Source: Paenibacillus sp. NAIST15-1
GTDB lineage: Bacteria > Bacillota > Bacilli > Paenibacillales > Paenibacillaceae
NCBI RefSeq assembly: GCF_001894745.1
Contig: NZ_BBYF01000001.1
Span: forward strand, 372,001 to 436,000
DNA length: 64,000 bases
Direction: 5' to 3'
Part shown: positions 30,262 to 40,884 of the stretch, piece by piece
Layout of the letters: each line of letters starts with the position of its first letter
Position numbering within the stretch: position 1 is the first letter of the stretch
Notes under the pieces: model-generated
Told to the model about the DNA's origin: nothing
Database searches by the model: none
What the model saw: only the letters and a program-made list of their open reading frames with translations
Translations under genes and position numbers: made by a program

Positions 30262-30584
30262 CTGTACCCCTCCTCGGCTGCGTTACATTCTTCCATTCGG
30301 CTTAAATCTCTTATGTATGTTCATTTGCTCTTATTTTCACTCATTTTCACCATTTTCAACCTTAGTTTACCATCCTTACTTCATTTCCGCTAGCTATGCG
30401 CAAGCATTCTCCATTTTCGATACCGACTGCTTTCAATATTATCATCTCATACATGGAAAGACTTCGCACTTTTCCGCATTTTCATGTAAACTTAAGGGGA
30501 CATGTTCAATTCTGATTGCTCTTGTAGCACGGATTGGACAACCTCTTAAGACATGGTAGTTTGCCCAAAACGGAGGAGATACCG

Positions 30585-32555
30585 ATGCTGCTTCAAGCGA
30601 ACGGCATATGCAAAAGTTACGGGATTACCCCCGTGTTATCCAACATTACTTTTCAAATTTTAGAACGTGAGCGGATTGGCTTAGTTGGGGTCAACGGCGC
30701 CGGCAAGTCTACGCTCCTGCAAATGATTGCCGGAGAGCTCACACCTGATGATGGCATCATATACAAGTCGAAGGAAACTCGAATCGGCTATCTTGCCCAA
30801 CATACCGGCCTTCATTCGGAACGGACGATTTGGGAAGAGATGATGTCCGTATTCTCTCACCTCATTGAGGCTGAGCAGGAGCTTCGAGAATTAGAGCGTC
30901 TTATTGCTGACCCTGCAACTGCGGAGAATGAATCTCGATATGAAGAGATCTTGCGTCGATATGCGGAGCAACAAGATTGGTTCCGCCAGCATGGCGGCTA
31001 TGAGATGGAGACGCGTGTGCGCAGCATCTTGCACGGCATGGGGTTCGGCCAGATGGATCCGAACACGATTCATATTCACACGCTGAGCGGTGGACAGAAG
31101 ACGAGATTGGCACTTGCCCGAATTTTGCTGCAACAGCCTGATTTGCTCCTGCTTGACGAACCTACGAACCATCTAGACATCCATACCCTTACATGGCTCG
31201 AAGGTTACTTACGCTCCTACCCTGGCGCTGTCCTTGTTGTATCGCATGACCGGTACTTCCTAGATGCGATGGTGACGACGATAATCGAGATCGAACGCCA
31301 TCAGGCCAAGCGGTATACAGGCAATTATTCGAAATATATCGAGTTGAAGGCAGCCGAATATGAGCAGCAAATGAAACTCTATGAGAAGCAGCAGGTTGAA
31401 ATCTCAAAGCTTGAAGATTTTGTACAGCGCAATATCGTACGCGCCTCAACAACCAAGCGTGCACAAAGCCGTCGTAAAGCACTCGAAAAAATGGAACGAA
31501 TCGATAAGCCATTAGGGGATCTGAAGCGTGCAAGCTTCAGCTTCGAGATTACACGTCAAAGCGGGAAAGATGTGCTTAAAGTAGAAGAAGCATCTGCATC
31601 CTATGACCATAAGCCTCCATTATTCCGCCATGTAAGCTTCGAATTGAAGCGTGGAGAAATGGTCGCTCTCATTGGCCCGAATGGTATCGGCAAGTCCACC
31701 TTGTTGAAAGCATTGACTGGCAAGCACGATCTATTAGCTGGACAGATCCAATGGGGCACGAATGTTTCGATTGGTTACTATGATCAGGAACAGACGAATC
31801 TGAACCCGAATGTAACCGTCATAGAGGAAGTATGGTCTGCCTATCCGCATATGGAAGAAGTTCGAATTCGAACCGTACTCGGAAGCTTCTTATTCAGCGG
31901 AGACGATGTACAGAAGAAGATCGCTTCCCTCAGTGGTGGGGAAAAAGCTAGAGTAGCACTAGCCAAGCTGATGCTCCTTCAAGCAAATGTGCTCATACTC
32001 GATGAGCCGACCAACCATTTGGATCTATTCAGCAAGGAAGTGCTCGAATCCGCTCTGATTGACTATGAAGGCACACTGCTCTTTATTTCACATGACCGTT
32101 ACTTCCTGAACAAGATGGCTGAGCGCATCGTGGAAATGAGTGCAGAAGGAACGTGTCATTTCCTAGGAAATTATGACGACTATGTAGAGAAGAAGCAGCA
32201 GCTGGAAGAAGATAAGGATCTGCTCTCCACAAATCCATCTCAGCCGAGCAAACCTGCTTCATTCCAGAGCAGTACGGCGGAAGGCAAATCAGAAGCAGCA
32301 CCTAGCGGATTGTCTACGTATGAAGCAGATAAGCAGTCGAAGCGAGAAGAACGCGCACGACAACGTAAGCTGGAGCAAATCGAGAAGCAAATTGCCGAGT
32401 TGGAAGCAGAGATTGCTGCTCGTGAGCTAGAACTTACCGAACCCGAAGTGTTCAATGATTATGTACGCGTCCAGTCGATTCAAGAACAATTAGATGCGTC
32501 CAAAGCCGCACTTGATGAAGTATATGCCGAGTGGGAGCTGCTTATGGAGGCATAA
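30585..32555 (+). CDS. ydiF: ABC-F family ribosome-associated ATPase (YdiF-type)
   Basis: The protein has 656 residues. Start ATG 30585 follows GGAGGAG. Two ABC domains: Walker A GVNGAGKST and GPNGIGKST, signatures LSGGQKTRLALARIL and LSGGEKARVALAKLM, each followed by LLLDEPTNHLD or LILDEPTNHLD. The interdomain linker (about 240-320) with ASTTKRAQSRRKALEKM is the P-site tRNA interaction motif of ABC-F proteins. A C-terminal coiled coil (about 580-655) is rich in Glu/Lys/Gln. There are no membrane segments. It likely remodels stalled ribosomes. It is similar to B. subtilis YdiF throughout, and its place near tsaD and the Tat genes matches that genome. Confidence 0.93.
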   Translation: MLLQANGICKSYGITPVLSNITFQILERERIGLVGVNGAGKSTLLQMIAGELTPDDGIIYKSKETRIGYLAQHTGLHSERTIWEEMMSVFSHLIEAEQELRELERLIADPATAENESRYEEILRRYAEQQDWFRQHGGYEMETRVRSILHGMGFGQMDPNTIHIHTLSGGQKTRLALARILLQQPDLLLLDEPTNHLDIHTLTWLEGYLRSYPGAVLVVSHDRYFLDAMVTTIIEIERHQAKRYTGNYSKYIELKAAEYEQQMKLYEKQQVEISKLEDFVQRNIVRASTTKRAQSRRKALEKMERIDKPLGDLKRASFSFEITRQSGKDVLKVEEASASYDHKPPLFRHVSFELKRGEMVALIGPNGIGKSTLLKALTGKHDLLAGQIQWGTNVSIGYYDQEQTNLNPNVTVIEEVWSAYPHMEEVRIRTVLGSFLFSGDDVQKKIASLSGGEKARVALAKLMLLQANVLILDEPTNHLDLFSKEVLESALIDYEGTLLFISHDRYFLNKMAERIVEMSAEGTCHFLGNYDDYVEKKQQLEEDKDLLSTNPSQPSKPASFQSSTAEGKSEAAPSGLSTYEADKQSKREERARQRKLEQIEKQIAELEAEIAARELELTEPEVFNDYVRVQSIQEQLDASKAALDEVYAEWELLMEA

Positions 32556-32648: not shown

Positions 32649-33125
32649 CTATGTGATAGAAACTACCTTTCCGTTCGTTAATTCCACTAACTGCTCAGGC
32701 GTTAATTGAAAGACAGCTTTGGGATGTCCTGCTGCGGCCCATATCACTTCATATTTCATCAGTTCTTCGTCGATCAGCGTCTCAATCGATTCCTTATGGG
32801 CAAACGGCGGAACACCTCCGATCACATAGCCTGTATGTTCTCGGACAAAATCAGCATCTGCCTTGCCAATCTTTTCGTTCAATAGATAACTGATCGCTCT
32901 CTCATTTACGCGATTCGTCCCACTTGCCACAATCAGCAAAGGGAGGTCTGCAGCCTTTCTGCGAAATATAATTGACTTTGCGATTTGCGATATTTCACAC
33001 CCGATTGTGTTTGCGGCTTCTTGCGCGGTTCTCGTGCTATCCGGCAGCTCAACAACCTGATTAGGCAGACCCCTAGCTGCAAGCTTGTCCTGCACAATCT
33101 GAGCACTGTTCTTAAGCTCATCCAT
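32649..33125 (-). CDS. YbaK/EbsC-type aminoacyl-tRNA deacylase
   Basis: This is a 158-residue single-domain protein of the YbaK/ProX superfamily. Conserved points are the catalytic-lysine segment QIAKSIIFRRKA, the GTNRVNE loop and GYVIGGVPPFAHKE. The family hydrolyses mischarged Cys-tRNA-Pro or Ala-tRNA-Pro; which one applies here is not resolvable. A GGAGGTG ribosome site precedes the ATG. It converges with ydiF. Confidence 0.88.
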   Translation of the reverse strand: MDELKNSAQIVQDKLAARGLPNQVVELPDSTRTAQEAANTIGCEISQIAKSIIFRRKAADLPLLIVASGTNRVNERAISYLLNEKIGKADADFVREHTGYVIGGVPPFAHKESIETLIDEELMKYEVIWAAAGHPKAVFQLTPEQLVELTNGKVVSIT

Positions 33126-33340: not shown

Positions 33341-33588
33341 TTATTCACAAGATTCATCTTTATGAAACAGAATTCAAGTTTTCATTTCCACTCATTTTTT
33401 ATTGGTAGAGCAGTGTTTTGATTTTGTAAACCAAGATTATCCACTGTTTTATCCACATTATCCACAATTCCAGTGTATTCCATTGCAAATGTTATTCTTT
33501 TTTTCACCAAAACTAGATCCTTAGTCCTGCATGGCCGAAAGCGTTCTATCCACGTTTTCAACGGAATATGTGGATAACTTTGTCCACA
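33341..33588. promoter_or_regulatory. DnaA-box cluster between the ybaK-like gene and leuA
   Basis: Nine-base DnaA boxes: TTATTCACA (33341-33349), TTATCCACT (33437-33445), TTATCCACA (33449-33457), TTATCCACA (33458-33466) and, on the minus strand, TTATCCACA (33569-33577). Near-matches lie at 33546-33554 and 33580-33588. There is no dnaA, dnaN or AT-rich unwinding-element context, so this is not oriC. B. subtilis has DnaA-box clusters away from oriC that influence initiation timing, and I recall one near gcp (tsaD), which is about 3 kb away here. Confidence 0.75.
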
Positions 33589-33593
33589 CTCCG

Positions 33594-35168
33594 TTAGGAT
33601 ACCTCCACAATCCCCGACTGGGCAATAGGGTCTGACTCAGCCACTTGGCCTCGAACGGCTTGATTGCATGCAGCAACATAGGCTTGTGCAGCCGCCATTA
33701 CAATATCTTGGTGCATCGCACTTCCTTGGTATCGGCATTCATTGCACGACACGGTAACTATGGCCTCGCCCGCAGCATTCTCCCCGGAAGACAACGAATG
33801 AAGCTCTAAGTCTTCAAATTGAATCGGTTCAGAGAAGGACTGCGTAATTGCCCGTATCACGGCTTCAATTGGCCCGCTGCCCACACCGGCATAAGTATGC
33901 TCCATTCCAGTATCCTGCTTCTTAACTACCACGGAGGCAACACGACTGCGAGAGCTCCCCGCTATTACTTGAACATCAAGCAGTTCAACAGCCTCCAGCT
34001 GTTCATTCAACGTCTCCCCGATGCAATGAAGCAGTTGTTCATCCGTCACAACCTTCTGCTGATCAGCCATCTGCTTGAAGTTCGCATATACCTCTTCCAA
34101 CTGATTCGTATCCAATGAGACTCCATATTGGGCAGCTCTATGCTTGAGTGCATGGCGTCCCGAATGCTTGCCCAGAATAATCATATGATGAGGAATGCCC
34201 AGCTCAACAGGATCCATGATCTCGTAAGTGCTGCGGTTTTTGAGCAATCCATCCTGATGAATACCAGACTCATGCTGGAAAGCGTTGCGGCCCACAATCG
34301 GCTTGTTGAATGCAATCGGGAAATGCATCATGCGGCTAACCATGCGAGACGTTTCGTATAAGTGCTCTGGCTTGATCTGCGTGCCCGCCCGCAATACATC
34401 ATTCCGCGTATTCAGTGCCATCACGAGCTCTTCCAACGCGCAATTGCCTGTGCGTTCCCCAACCCCATTTACCGTTACTTCAATCTGAGTAGCTCCTGCC
34501 TTAATCGCAGCGATGCTGTTCGCAACAGCAAGACCCAGATCATTATGGCAATGGGCACTGAATTGAACTTGGTCTGCCCCCCGCGCGCCTTGTCTCACCT
34601 TGCGGAATAATGCTCCGTACTCCTCAGGAAGAGCATAACCAACTGTATCCGGCAAGTTAATAATTGTGGCTCCTTCTTGAATAGCAGTCTCTACAAGTTC
34701 AATTACATAATCAGCGTCTGCGCGTGTCGCATCCATAGCCGTGAACTCAATCTGATCTACAAATTGCTTGGCGTAGGACACCATTTCCCGTGCCATTTGC
34801 TTCACTTCTTCCCGAGTCTTGCGCAGCTGATATTGCAGATGAATATCCGAAGCGGAAATAAAGAGATGGATACGTCTCTTCGCTGCATCTTCGGTTGCGC
34901 GAACCGCAGCATCGATATCCTCTTTTACCGCACGTGCAAAACCACAGATTTCAACCTCAGGGAACATTCTTGAAATGCGCTGTACGGCCTCAAATTCCCC
35001 TGGGCTGGATACCGGAAATCCCGGCTCCATGACATCTACACCCAATGCAGCGAGTCTCCCCGCCAGCTCCAACTTCTGATCCAACGTGAGAGCTGCACCT
35101 GGTGCTTGCTCTCCATCCCGCAGCGTAGTATCGAAAATTCGAACCATATTGCTATTGTTCGTTGACAT
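33594..35168 (-). CDS. leuA: 2-Isopropylmalate synthase
   Basis: This is a 524-residue enzyme of LeuA length. The TIM-barrel catalytic domain opens with IFDTTLRDGEQAPGAALT and has the metal-binding SAHCHNDLGLAVANS. GVGERTGNCALEELVMAL follows. The C-terminal LeuA dimer regulatory domain (about 400-510) senses leucine. It condenses 2-oxoisovalerate and acetyl-CoA, the first committed step of leucine synthesis. It is controlled by two tandem leucine T-boxes and has an AAGGAGG ribosome site. No leuB/C/D gene is adjacent; behind it lies the DnaA-box region. Confidence 0.96.
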   Translation of the reverse strand: MSTNNSNMVRIFDTTLRDGEQAPGAALTLDQKLELAGRLAALGVDVMEPGFPVSSPGEFEAVQRISRMFPEVEICGFARAVKEDIDAAVRATEDAAKRRIHLFISASDIHLQYQLRKTREEVKQMAREMVSYAKQFVDQIEFTAMDATRADADYVIELVETAIQEGATIINLPDTVGYALPEEYGALFRKVRQGARGADQVQFSAHCHNDLGLAVANSIAAIKAGATQIEVTVNGVGERTGNCALEELVMALNTRNDVLRAGTQIKPEHLYETSRMVSRMMHFPIAFNKPIVGRNAFQHESGIHQDGLLKNRSTYEIMDPVELGIPHHMIILGKHSGRHALKHRAAQYGVSLDTNQLEEVYANFKQMADQQKVVTDEQLLHCIGETLNEQLEAVELLDVQVIAGSSRSRVASVVVKKQDTGMEHTYAGVGSGPIEAVIRAITQSFSEPIQFEDLELHSLSSGENAAGEAIVTVSCNECRYQGSAMHQDIVMAAAQAYVAACNQAVRGQVAESDPIAQSGIVEVS

Positions 35169-35289: not shown

Positions 35290-35590
35290 AAAAAAACCTA
35301 TCGTCTCCACGTATCAGGAGACGACAGGTTGTATGCCGCGGTACCACTCCGATTGAAGGCCATATAAGATGCAGGCGCAGCCAGCTCCTATTCGAGACCT
35401 TCCTCTCATGCCTGATAACGGCAGGTACCGTAACTGCTTATCGAATATAATCGGAATATCGTCATATCCAATCATGCTCGTTCAGCTGTTCCACTCCCAG
35501 GCGAGTTCAGACTTTACTGTCACTGCGTCGCATCACCCCGCAGCTTGCTGTGAGACAGTTCAACTCTTACTACTCCTGTTCGTTGTGTAT
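35290..35590 (-). promoter_or_regulatory. Leucine T-box riboswitch, proximal copy
   Basis: On the minus strand: Stem I base CAGG/CCTG with AGTAGTA loop, opposite loop GAACTCG carrying specifier CTC (Leu; 35503-35505), T-box AGTGGTACCGCGG (35339-35351) and terminator ACCTGTCGTCTCC...GGAGACGATAGGT with a seven-T run. It is the second of two tandem leaders before leuA. Confidence 0.93.
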
Positions 35591-35636
35591 GAATACTATG
35601 TTATTGTCGTGTCGTTCGATTAAGTTGGGTGACAAT

Positions 35637-35935
35637 AAAAAAACCTGTCGCCTCGTTAGAGACGACAGGTGTTCTGCCGTGGTACCACTCTAGTTGATGA
35701 ACTCCATCTTCGCGATAGATGAAGCCTCATCCGCTTCATGCACATGTCGATACACGCAGGCCACAGCCTAGAAATATATCGTCATGTACGCCCGATGACG
35801 GGGGCTACCGTATCTGCGTACTTCATTCCGCCGATCCGCTCACAGGCGAGTTCAGGCTTGCTGCCACTGCGTTGCACCATCCCGCAGCTCTCTTCATTTG
35901 AACAGCAATTTCCCTACTACTCCTGATCTTAGCGT
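35637..35935 (-). promoter_or_regulatory. Leucine T-box riboswitch, distal copy
   Basis: It has the same architecture as the proximal copy: CAGG/CCTG stem base, AGTAGTA loop, GAACTCG with specifier CTC (35848-35850), T-box AGTGGTACCACGG (35677-35689) and terminator ACCTGTCGTCTC...GAGGCGACAGGT with a T-run. Two terminators in series imply that two uncharged tRNA-Leu molecules are needed for read-through. Confidence 0.93.
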
Positions 35936-35980
35936 TATACCGTATTTCCCATTCCATGGAAGGATTTAGGTTTGATGACT

Positions 35981-36053: not shown

Positions 36054-37103
36054 TTACACGGACCACGCTTCTAAGGAGAACGATGGCTCTGCCTTGAAGT
36101 CAAGCGGCGTAGACTGACCATGCTTCCACTTCAAGTAAGCAGCAGCTCCAATCATTGCCGCATTGTCCGTACAATATTCGAATGGCGGGATGAGCAGCGG
36201 AATCCCCTCAGCAGCACAGCGTTCTGCCAATGCTGCCCGCAGGCCCCGGTTGGCGGCAACCCCTCCGCACAGCAGAAGCTGCTTCGCACCGTATTGTTGA
36301 ACAGCCCGCATCGCTTTGCCAATCAGCACGTCGATGACAGAGAGCTGGAATCCACGGGCAATTCCTGCGTAATTCGGCTCGTCCCCCTTCATCTTTGCCT
36401 GGTTGACCGCATTCAGCACGGCAGATTTCAATCCACTGAAGCTGAAGTCGTACGATTCGGGATCAAGCCAAGCTCGGGGCATCTCGACCTCCTCGATTGA
36501 TTCAACTGCCAGCCGGTCGATATGCGGACCCCCCGGATATGGGAAGCCGACTGCCCGTGCTACCTTGTCATAAGCCTCGCCTACTGCGTCGTCTCTTGTA
36601 CGCCCGATTAACTGGAATTTTCCTTCTTCCTCCAAGAGCACAAGTTCTGTATGACCCCCAGACACTACGAGCGCCATGCATGGGTACTCAATCTCTTCCA
36701 CTAGTCGATTCGCATAAATATGACCCGCAATATGATGAGTTCCAATGAGCGGAATATCAAGAGCCATAGACAGTGATTTGGCAGCGACAACGCCAACAAG
36801 CAGCGATCCGACTAGACCCGGCCCTTGTGTTACCGCAATTGCATCTACATCTGCCATCGTAACGTCTGCTTCCTGAAGCGCCTGCTCCAGCATCACCGTA
36901 ATCGTCTCGACATGCTTGCGAGAGGCAATCTCCGGAACAACTCCGCCGAAGCGGCGATGAACGTCGATTTGACTGGACACCATATTGGACAGTACCTCTC
37001 GTCCATCGCGGACGAGAGCTACTGAGGTCTCATCGCAGCTCGTTTCAATAGACATAATGAGGCAAGAATTATCTTTAATAGATTGGTTCGTCAATGATTT
37101 CAC
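36054..37103 (-). CDS. tsaD: tRNA t6A37 threonylcarbamoyltransferase TsaD
   Basis: The protein has 349 residues with the ASKHA fold. [12 protein letters not shown] begins the phosphate loop. [11 protein letters not shown] (His 123 and 127) supplies metal ligands. [10 protein letters not shown] and the C-terminal [13 protein letters not shown] and [12 protein letters not shown] complete the family pattern. With TsaB and TsaE it transfers threonylcarbamoyl to A37 of ANN-decoding tRNAs. The GTG at 37103 may not be the true start; a TTG nine bases inside has AGGTGA before it. Last gene of tsaE-tsaB-rimI-tsaD. Confidence 0.96.
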
Positions 37104-39780: not shown

Positions 39781-40884
39781 ATGCATACGGTTTGGAAAGG
39801 CGCCATAAGCTTCGGCCTTGTACACGTCCCTGTCAAAATGCATACCGCAACCGAGGATAAGGATATATCCATGCGCATGATTCATAAAGAGTGCGGCAGC
39901 CCGTTATCCTACGTTCGATCCTGTCCGGTATGCGACAAAGAGGTGGCCTGGGACGAGATCATCAAGGGATATGAGTATGAGAAAGGGCGTTTCGTCTTAT
40001 TCGACAAAGAGGAATTGGAGCAGCTGCAAGAAGAGGCCAACCGTGCTATCTCCATCATTGATTTTGTCGACTTGCAGGAAATTGACCCAATTTATTACCA
40101 GAAAACGTATTACCTCTCCCCAGACCAAGCAGGGGCGAATGCGTATCAACTTCTGAGGGAAGCCCTCAATGAGACTGGCAAGATTGGAATTGCTAAGGTT
40201 ACCCTTCGTGCAAAGAGCAGTCTTGCTGCAATCCGTGTTTTGAACAATTGCCTCGTAATGGAGACGATGCATTACCCCGATGAGATCCGGGCTTCGACTC
40301 AAGTACCGAATGTTCCGGAACAGGTACAGGTGAACCCTAAAGAACTCGAGATGGCCAAGCTGCTTATTAGCCAGTTATCAACTACCTTCGAGCCTGAAAA
40401 ATATACGGACGAGTACCGAGCACGCCTATTGGAACGTATCGAACGGAAAATTGCAGGACAAGAGGTTCGAACCGCTCCTGCTGCTCAGCCTACCGCCAAT
40501 GTCGTTGATTTGATGGCTGCATTGCAAGCCAGCATCGAGGCAATGAAATCACCTGCACCGATTAGCACGGATACAGGCGTAAGTCAGCCGGTAACAGCAA
40601 GCAATGCAACAGCTACAGAAGGCGCATCGTCACGGAAACGAAGAACAACTAAACGAAAATCTGAAACGGCAGCACAGGAAACAAGTACCGTGCAAACCGA
40701 TGCAAATGCAGCTGTGAACGATTCAGCCCTGTCCGAAGAAGCTCCTCGAAGCAGGCGCAAGGCTCGCAGCACTTCCACACGTGTTCCAGCTAAGCAAGCA
40801 GCTAGCGGAGAAGCTGCAGAACCAGCCCCTCCTGCACGTCGGCGCAGAAGTACTAAGAAATCGAAGGAAGGCTTGAGCTCCTAA
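39781..40884 (+). CDS. ku: Non-homologous end-joining protein Ku
   Basis: The protein has 367 residues. The Ku core (about 1-235) starts with MHTVWKGAISFGLVHVPVKM and includes CPVCDKEVAWDEIIKGYEYE. A long C-terminal extension (about 270-367) is rich in Ala/Ser/Thr with Lys-Arg clusters (SRKRRTTKRKSE, RRRRSTKKSKEG), reminiscent of DNA-binding tails of some bacterial Ku proteins. It forms a ring on DNA ends and recruits LigD. ATG with AAAGGAGG. Its stop overlaps the next start (TAATG), so ligase synthesis is coupled. Confidence 0.95.
   Translation: MHTVWKGAISFGLVHVPVKMHTATEDKDISMRMIHKECGSPLSYVRSCPVCDKEVAWDEIIKGYEYEKGRFVLFDKEELEQLQEEANRAISIIDFVDLQEIDPIYYQKTYYLSPDQAGANAYQLLREALNETGKIGIAKVTLRAKSSLAAIRVLNNCLVMETMHYPDEIRASTQVPNVPEQVQVNPKELEMAKLLISQLSTTFEPEKYTDEYRARLLERIERKIAGQEVRTAPAAQPTANVVDLMAALQASIEAMKSPAPISTDTGVSQPVTASNATATEGASSRKRRTTKRKSETAAQETSTVQTDANAAVNDSALSEEAPRSRRKARSTSTRVPAKQAASGEAAEPAPPARRRRSTKKSKEGLSS

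Follow-up and report, generated by a model that had tools for sequence, protein, structure and literature searches.

A DnaA-box cluster linked to tsaD is conserved in many Bacillota and probably restrains replication initiation

Introduction

The control that limits initiation of chromosome replication to once per cell cycle is, to our knowledge, poorly known in Gram-positive bacteria outside B. subtilis. In the window, by which the whole 64,000-nucleotide stretch of DNA analysed from Paenibacillus sp. NAIST15-1 is meant, a dense group of DnaA boxes was identified in a noncoding gap close to tsaD (gcp). This raised the question whether the boxes have come together by chance or form a control element of the chromosome, and which role such an element would have.

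For B. subtilis, the gcp/ydiF region was found to be among the regions most strongly bound by DnaA in vitro, where it is region 4 in a table of the top 20 (PMC4447404). The removal of six clusters outside oriC resulted in early initiation, an effect which was strong only when all six were gone (PMC5295017, PMC13220808). The precedent near gcp, which the first-pass annotation of the window had cited, is thus real. The B. subtilis gcp/ydiF cluster is already known, and what is new here is the depth of its conservation: among the published matches listed, judged by their titles and the beginnings of their abstracts, no report on conservation beyond B. subtilis was identified, while Okumura 2012 may describe a part of it.

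The Boxes and Their Gene Neighbourhood

A motif scan identified three perfect DnaA boxes, three boxes with one mismatch and one weak box in the cluster (Table 1). All five boxes named in the first-pass annotation, i.e., the distal box, the third core box, the tandem pair and the head box, were found, and the TTGTCCACA box and the two-mismatch box CTATCCACG were identified in addition. The position of the latter, 14 bp from the head box, is occupied by a box in many relatives.

Table 1: Features of the cluster and its neighbouring genes (positions in the window).
Feature	Position	Strand	Remarks
ydiF-type ABC-F ATPase gene	30534..32555	+	NF000355, 504 bits (cut-off 380); convergent to tsaD
ybaK-like gene, aminoacyl-tRNA deacylase family	32649..33125	-	TIGR00011, 68.5 bits, under the cut-off of 153; between cluster and ydiF
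Distal DnaA box TTATTCACA	33341..33349	+	Matches the distal-box position of the family layout
Third core box TTATCCACT	33437..33445	+	3 bp before the tandem pair; a third box at 3 bp is also present in many other genomes of the order
Tandem pair, box 1, TTATCCACA	33449..33457	+	Perfect box
Tandem pair, box 2, TTATCCACA	33458..33466	+	Abuts box 1
Weak box CTATCCACG	33546..33554	+	Two mismatches; separated from the head box by 14 bp
Head box TTATCCACA	33569..33577	-	Faces the other boxes; conserved block in the alignment
TTGTCCACA box	33580..33588	+	2 bp past the head box; conserved block in the alignment
leuA, 2-isopropylmalate synthase	33594..35168	-	NF002086, 669 bits (cut-off 532); stands between tsaD and cluster
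tsaD (gcp)	36054..37103	-	TIGR03723, 431 bits (cut-off 296); anchor gene across the phylum

The genes are arranged in the order tsaE, tsaB, rimI, tsaD, leuA, cluster, ybaK and a convergent ABC-F gene, which we take to be ydiF from its position, followed by a gene for 5-formyltetrahydrofolate cyclo-ligase and a MoaB-like gene. The boxes are located between leuA and ybaK, the end of the last box being 2.5 kb from tsaD, and thereby in the interval between the 3' ends of tsaD and ydiF, which exists in relatives in versions with and without leuA and ybaK. The locus of the window has the same address as the B. subtilis gcp/ydiF cluster with two genes added, so that the first-pass annotation of a similar neighbourhood was right as to the gcp-ydiF address and needs correction only in that leuA and ybaK lie inside the interval.

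Two tandem T-box leaders were identified upstream of leuA on the minus strand, at 35314-35592 and 35655-35939 (Rfam RF00230, 111 and 102 bits). These were the only structured RNAs returned by the search, and the explanation that the cluster coincides with an RNA of known structure was rejected. A gene for Ku, involved in non-homologous end joining, adjoins the tsa genes (39781-40884).

Clustering of the Boxes Compared to Chance

A cluster score, taken as a proxy for affinity, was used in which a perfect box counts 3 and a box with one mismatch counts 1. The intergenic stretch between ybaK and leuA scores 12, a value reached by none of 1000 dinucleotide shuffles (mean 0.29, maximum 4), and none of 150 permuted motifs reached the score in the locus of the window. 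The density beyond chance that had been claimed for the boxes was thereby upheld. Over the entire window, the count of boxes is by itself ordinary, with five occurrences of TTATNCACA against 2.3 expected and 11 of 100 shuffles reaching five; it is the clustering that matters. Genome-wide, 79 perfect boxes were identified in 6.77 Mb, compared to 29 for a reversed control, and from these 79 boxes about 1e-4 sets of three perfect boxes within 129 bp would be expected in the genome. Single boxes are thus common, which could speak for a clustering by chance or by base composition without any function. This explanation was rejected on the shuffles and the permuted motifs, and with the phylum-wide conservation and the clean gene controls described below it is hardly credible.

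At two other places in the genome, three or more perfect boxes are found within 500 bp. One of them (C15:12243-12617), with nine boxes upstream of dnaA, is the presumed oriC. The other (C4:61268-61695, or L001 9269-9696) contains three perfect boxes and three boxes with one mismatch and is flanked by motA/motB-like genes and a gene for a PDZ-domain protein, its first box being located inside the 3' end of the motB-like open reading frame. At the end of a further contig (C24:41-260, L003), two perfect boxes and two boxes with one mismatch were identified; at the thresholds used, no NCBIfam or Pfam match was obtained for the four open reading frames that follow.

Conservation within the Order

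For the order of the window, the tsaD region was analysed in 60 genomes, picked across genera from about 150 listed; 293 genomes other than that of the window had a match. Together with the locus of the window itself, 51 of 61 loci had a score of at least 7, reached by at most two of 150 permuted motifs. In nine of the remaining ten genomes the ydiF side was searched, and a cluster was identified in eight, with 0 of 150 controls in each case. In total, 59 of the 61 genomes contain a cluster; no cluster was found in the other two, G223 and G262, which both belong to genus g7.

The cluster tends to follow ydiF in this order. In L141, L142, L143, L147 and L148 it lies beside ydiF, with tsaD at a distance of 16-30 kb or, in L148, on a different contig. 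Many relatives have the cluster in the gap where tsaD or leuA on one side and ydiF on the other converge with their 3' ends. The ydiF-side boxes of L146 and L149, which represent one genus of another family, are present in an inverted and different arrangement.

Conservation in Other Orders and Classes

The class set consisted of 40 of 139 genomes from other orders of the same class, covering 32 families and chosen with regard to contig ends. A score of at least 6 was obtained for 31 and of at least 7 for 29 of the 40 loci, each with at most one of 150 controls reaching the score. L128, from a 2.5-Mb genome, had a score of only 6 (1 of 150 controls). In some loci of the class, e.g., L101, L117, L128, L132 and L137, the cluster is not at the stop codon of tsaD, being 0.6-2 kb away from the gene. 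Among the 40 loci, no cluster was identified in L109, L112, L114, L115, L121, L135, L136, L138 and L139. G346, G386 and G416 (L150-L153) were likewise without a cluster on the side of ydiF.

For named Bacillus-like species, one Bacillus TsaD served as the query, and the best 80 of its 209 relatives were scored without the permuted-motif control. All 80 loci had a score of at least 5 and 78 of at least 7. They include B. spizizenii, B. mojavensis, B. velezensis, Metabacillus, Rossellomorea and Jeotgalibacillus. In L204, the cluster is 5 kb from tsaD in a locus without ydiF. The record L192, named Paenibacillus bovis, contains a TsaD with 78% identity to the Bacillus query and a tsaD-ydiF locus of the Bacillus type, and is possibly misnamed.

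From other classes of the phylum, all 58 genomes found were analysed, two genera being represented twice (L235/L236 and L254/L286). A score of at least 7 was obtained for 37 of the 58 loci, with at most one of 150 controls. In 34 of these 37, the best 400-base segment is centred between 200 bases before and 600 bases after the stop codon of tsaD. The other 21 loci are below 7, two of them at 6 and 19 under 5; L255, L261, L282 and L292 are shortened by contig ends, of which L282 scored 7. The ydiF of the window had a match in only one of the 58 loci (L250), which was weak with 24% identity. Anchoring of the cluster to ydiF alone was therefore rejected, since the cluster follows tsaD in the loci of other classes.

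As gene controls, 30 loci each for GroEL and RecA were scored with 1500 bases on each side, after a search of 47 genomes. None of either set reached 7, the highest scores being 2 and 3. When the tsaD loci were trimmed to a size like that of the controls, 35 of 57 still reached 7. Conservation among close relatives, which the first-pass annotation had proposed to look for, was thus found well beyond the Bacillales, and its view of a conserved chromosomal control element is supported. The element is not essential, since it was not found in two of 61, nine of 40 and 19-21 of 58 genomes of the order, class and phylum sets.

The abutting pair was also searched by itself. With at most one mismatch, the motif TTATCCACATTATCCACA has a single match in the genome of the window, which is the locus described here. 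The search sets for other genomes were picked by hand (20 from the family, 16 from the class and 31 of the 58 from the phylum). In the 20 family genomes, 16 matches were identified, all within 35 kb of tsaD, compared to three for the reversed control. Two of 10 matches in the class set and 27 of 50 in the phylum set are at the tsaD locus, the phylum numbers being biased towards the locus because most of the sampled genomes contain the cluster. Outside the family, the motif is thus not confined to this locus, with eight of the 10 class matches and 23 of the 50 phylum matches elsewhere. Those of the phylum set, e.g., in G469, G476 and G484, may mark oriC or other conserved clusters.

Genes beside the Cluster

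DnaA is also a transcription factor, and the cluster might be a site at which it regulates a neighbouring gene. In the window the boxes are upstream of ybaK, three weak promoter-like matches are present in the stretch, compared to a mean of 1.3 in shuffles, and in 34 of the 37 loci from other classes the next open reading frame is co-directional, by a crude call of frames of at least 110 amino acids. Some of the neighbours recur: among 20 of the 37 next frames, which were picked mainly by length and typed, radical SAM (8), LGT (5) and Mur ligase (4) genes repeat, the others being an AMP-binding gene, a cyclo-ligase gene and one without a match. A neighbour shared by all loci is, however, not present, with ybaK in the window, convergent 3' ends in many relatives and, in the other classes, genes from five or more families. 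Where the flanking 3' ends are convergent, no promoter is expected at the cluster. A promoter for one fixed gene was rejected, as a conserved single target gene beside the boxes is absent, and transcription control in general is considered quite improbable.

Layout and Spacing of the Boxes

In the orientation of tsaD, the commonest layout in the order begins with TTGTCCACA on the opposite strand, followed after 2-3 bp by the head box TTATCCACA on the tsaD strand. After 14 bp, a weak box is present on the opposite strand, and after about 80 bp two abutting boxes on the same opposite strand. A third box, whose last base is C or T, follows 3 bp further. The layout ends with one or two distal boxes, mostly at a distance of 84-87 or 96-98 bp. 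Single parts are absent from some genomes. The abutting pair was identified in 57 of the 59 clusters of the order at no more than two mismatches per box, and in 55 (50 of 51 and 5 of 8) at no more than one.

Among the 51 clusters in which the distance from head box to pair was measurable, it is 91-94 bp in six, 101-106 bp in 43 and 112-114 bp in two, and the distances from pair to distal box are 88-89, 96-99, 107-112, 116-119 and 127 bp. In 56 of the 59 clusters (without L145, L146 and L149), circular concentrations of 0.79 and 0.75 were obtained on 26 and 27 distinct genus-spacing states, and neither was reached by any of 2000 jittered sets, a null model which ignores shared descent. In the order of the window, the layout is thus largely fixed, and its spacings differ by steps that each correspond to about one helical turn; insertions of this length are what an ordered protein-DNA complex would be expected to tolerate. 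In an alignment of the same 56 clusters, the stretches between the boxes are weakly conserved except for the short block GGGGATAG. This block is placed between head box and tandem pair, has no match in the window itself and is possibly a low-affinity DnaA site.

At no more than one mismatch, the pair is on the strand opposite to tsaD in 50 of 51 clusters of the order, five of eight of the extended order set, 14 of 29 of the class, 68 of 78 of the named set and 27 of 37 of the phylum. It is on the tsaD strand in 0, 2, 0, 1 and 1 of these, respectively. Half of the class clusters are without an abutting pair, whereas several other classes again have the pair together with a third box at 3 bp.

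Position in the Chromosome

In the draft genome, dnaA is on contig C15 and the cluster on C1, so the cluster is not adjacent to dnaA. Of 62 genomes, 35 were used to calculate the distance to oriC. The distance between tsaD and dnaA is 0.16-0.27 of the chromosome in 19 complete genomes of the family and 0.07-0.35 in 16 other Bacilli, and it is below 0.25 in 32 of these 35 complete relatives. The description of the locus as far from oriC needs correction to the extent that it is oriC-proximal in most complete relatives. With tsaD close to dnaA, the site is copied early in the cycle in most relatives, and judged from these it would also be copied early in the organism of the window.

The boxes, together with an A/T-rich stretch among them (about 33480-33505), could also be taken for a second or ectopic replication origin. 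Since the presumed oriC with its nine boxes is upstream of dnaA on another contig, and since the locus is at a distance from dnaA in all complete relatives analysed, this is very improbable.

Predicted Role of the Cluster

The element in the window probably belongs, with the gcp/ydiF site of B. subtilis, to one kind of noncoding DnaA-box cluster, which binds DnaA and restrains replication initiation. Its most likely role is predicted to be that of an early-duplicated, ordered sink for ATP-DnaA that restrains re-initiation. In the proposed mechanism, ATP-DnaA would nucleate on the perfect tandem pair and spread for about 100 bp in both directions, reaching the head box and the distal boxes on their set helical faces, and an ordered complex of high affinity would result. 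Because of its oriC-proximal position, the cluster would be duplicated soon after initiation, and the second copy would then take active DnaA from the pool and delay the next round. For the organism of the window, it is inferred that DnaA binds, how its complex is shaped and how initiation responds. A sink for active DnaA is the best reading because the six-cluster deletion in B. subtilis leads to early initiation, because the site is replicated early, and because its B. subtilis counterpart prefers ATP-DnaA.

Two points do not fit well with a simple sink. In B. subtilis, an overproduction of DnaA of about 10-fold did not lead to over-initiation, unlike in E. coli (PMC13220808), which disfavours simple titration. 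Titration alone also does not need a fixed helical spacing.

The overproduction result, together with a helical geometry that exceeds the needs of a sink, leaves room for an activity like that of E. coli datA, which acts by ATP hydrolysis, or DARS, which acts by ADP release. In this alternative, an ordered DnaA complex would change the nucleotide state of DnaA in addition to holding it. Besides the fixed layout with helical-step spacing and the failure of excess DnaA to cause over-initiation, it is favoured by the strong preference of the B. subtilis counterpart for ATP-DnaA, with a 16-fold difference to ADP-DnaA at 55 nM (PMC4447404), and by the fact that, in a 2026 review, the control of the DnaA nucleotide state in B. 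subtilis, and whether regulators of it exist there, is described as not known (PMC13220808). However, datA of E. coli requires IHF (PMC5295017), and B. subtilis is described as being without IHF, datA and DARS (PMC13220808), so a nucleotide-switching complex is rather unlikely compared to the predicted sink.

In the widest interpretation, which is put forward tentatively, the tsaD-linked cluster would be an ancestral, phylum-wide replication-control locus that has stayed at one gene address since a time before the Bacilli separated from the other classes sampled. A DnaA complex of defined geometry would assemble there and switch or store the activity of DnaA, as a functional counterpart of datA and DARS in bacteria which are said to be without them. 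A noncoding DnaA site that stays at one gene throughout a phylum and has helically stepped spacing in one order offers a defined DNA on which titration and switching can be distinguished, and for organisms without any work on replication, the tsaD cluster is a control locus that is easily found.

Comparison to Known Systems

The closest system is the gcp/ydiF cluster of B. subtilis, for which the comparison was made on B. spizizenii, B. mojavensis and other named Bacillus (L176, L169) and not on B. subtilis 168. The gene address, the dense boxes in a noncoding gap and the abutting tandem boxes are alike. In contrast to the Bacillus type, the interval in the window also contains leuA and ybaK. 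The distance from head box to tandem pair is about 103 bp in the order of the window and about 80 bp in B. spizizenii, and the pair is followed by the third box after 3 bp in the window but preceded by it at 13 bp in B. spizizenii.

The E. coli loci datA, DARS1 and DARS2 are at gene addresses different from that of the tsaD cluster. They are likewise noncoding DnaA-box loci outside oriC which modulate initiation, whereas for Bacillota sites no switching activity is known according to the 2026 review (PMC13220808). In a titration model for E. coli (PMC12371093), an early-replicating region enriched in boxes was also proposed to titrate DnaA. There, the boxes form a broad density gradient, while at tsaD they are packed into a single cluster beside a fixed gene; Bacillus, Bacillota and tsaD are not mentioned in the main text of that paper. 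For the double DnaA box of E. coli, it was shown that close pairs on the same strand bind DnaA best and that the spacing matters (PMC11317965), which resembles the core of the cluster described here. The E. coli pairs are 2-3 bp apart, whereas the core in the window consists of a pair at 0 bp with a third box at 3 bp.
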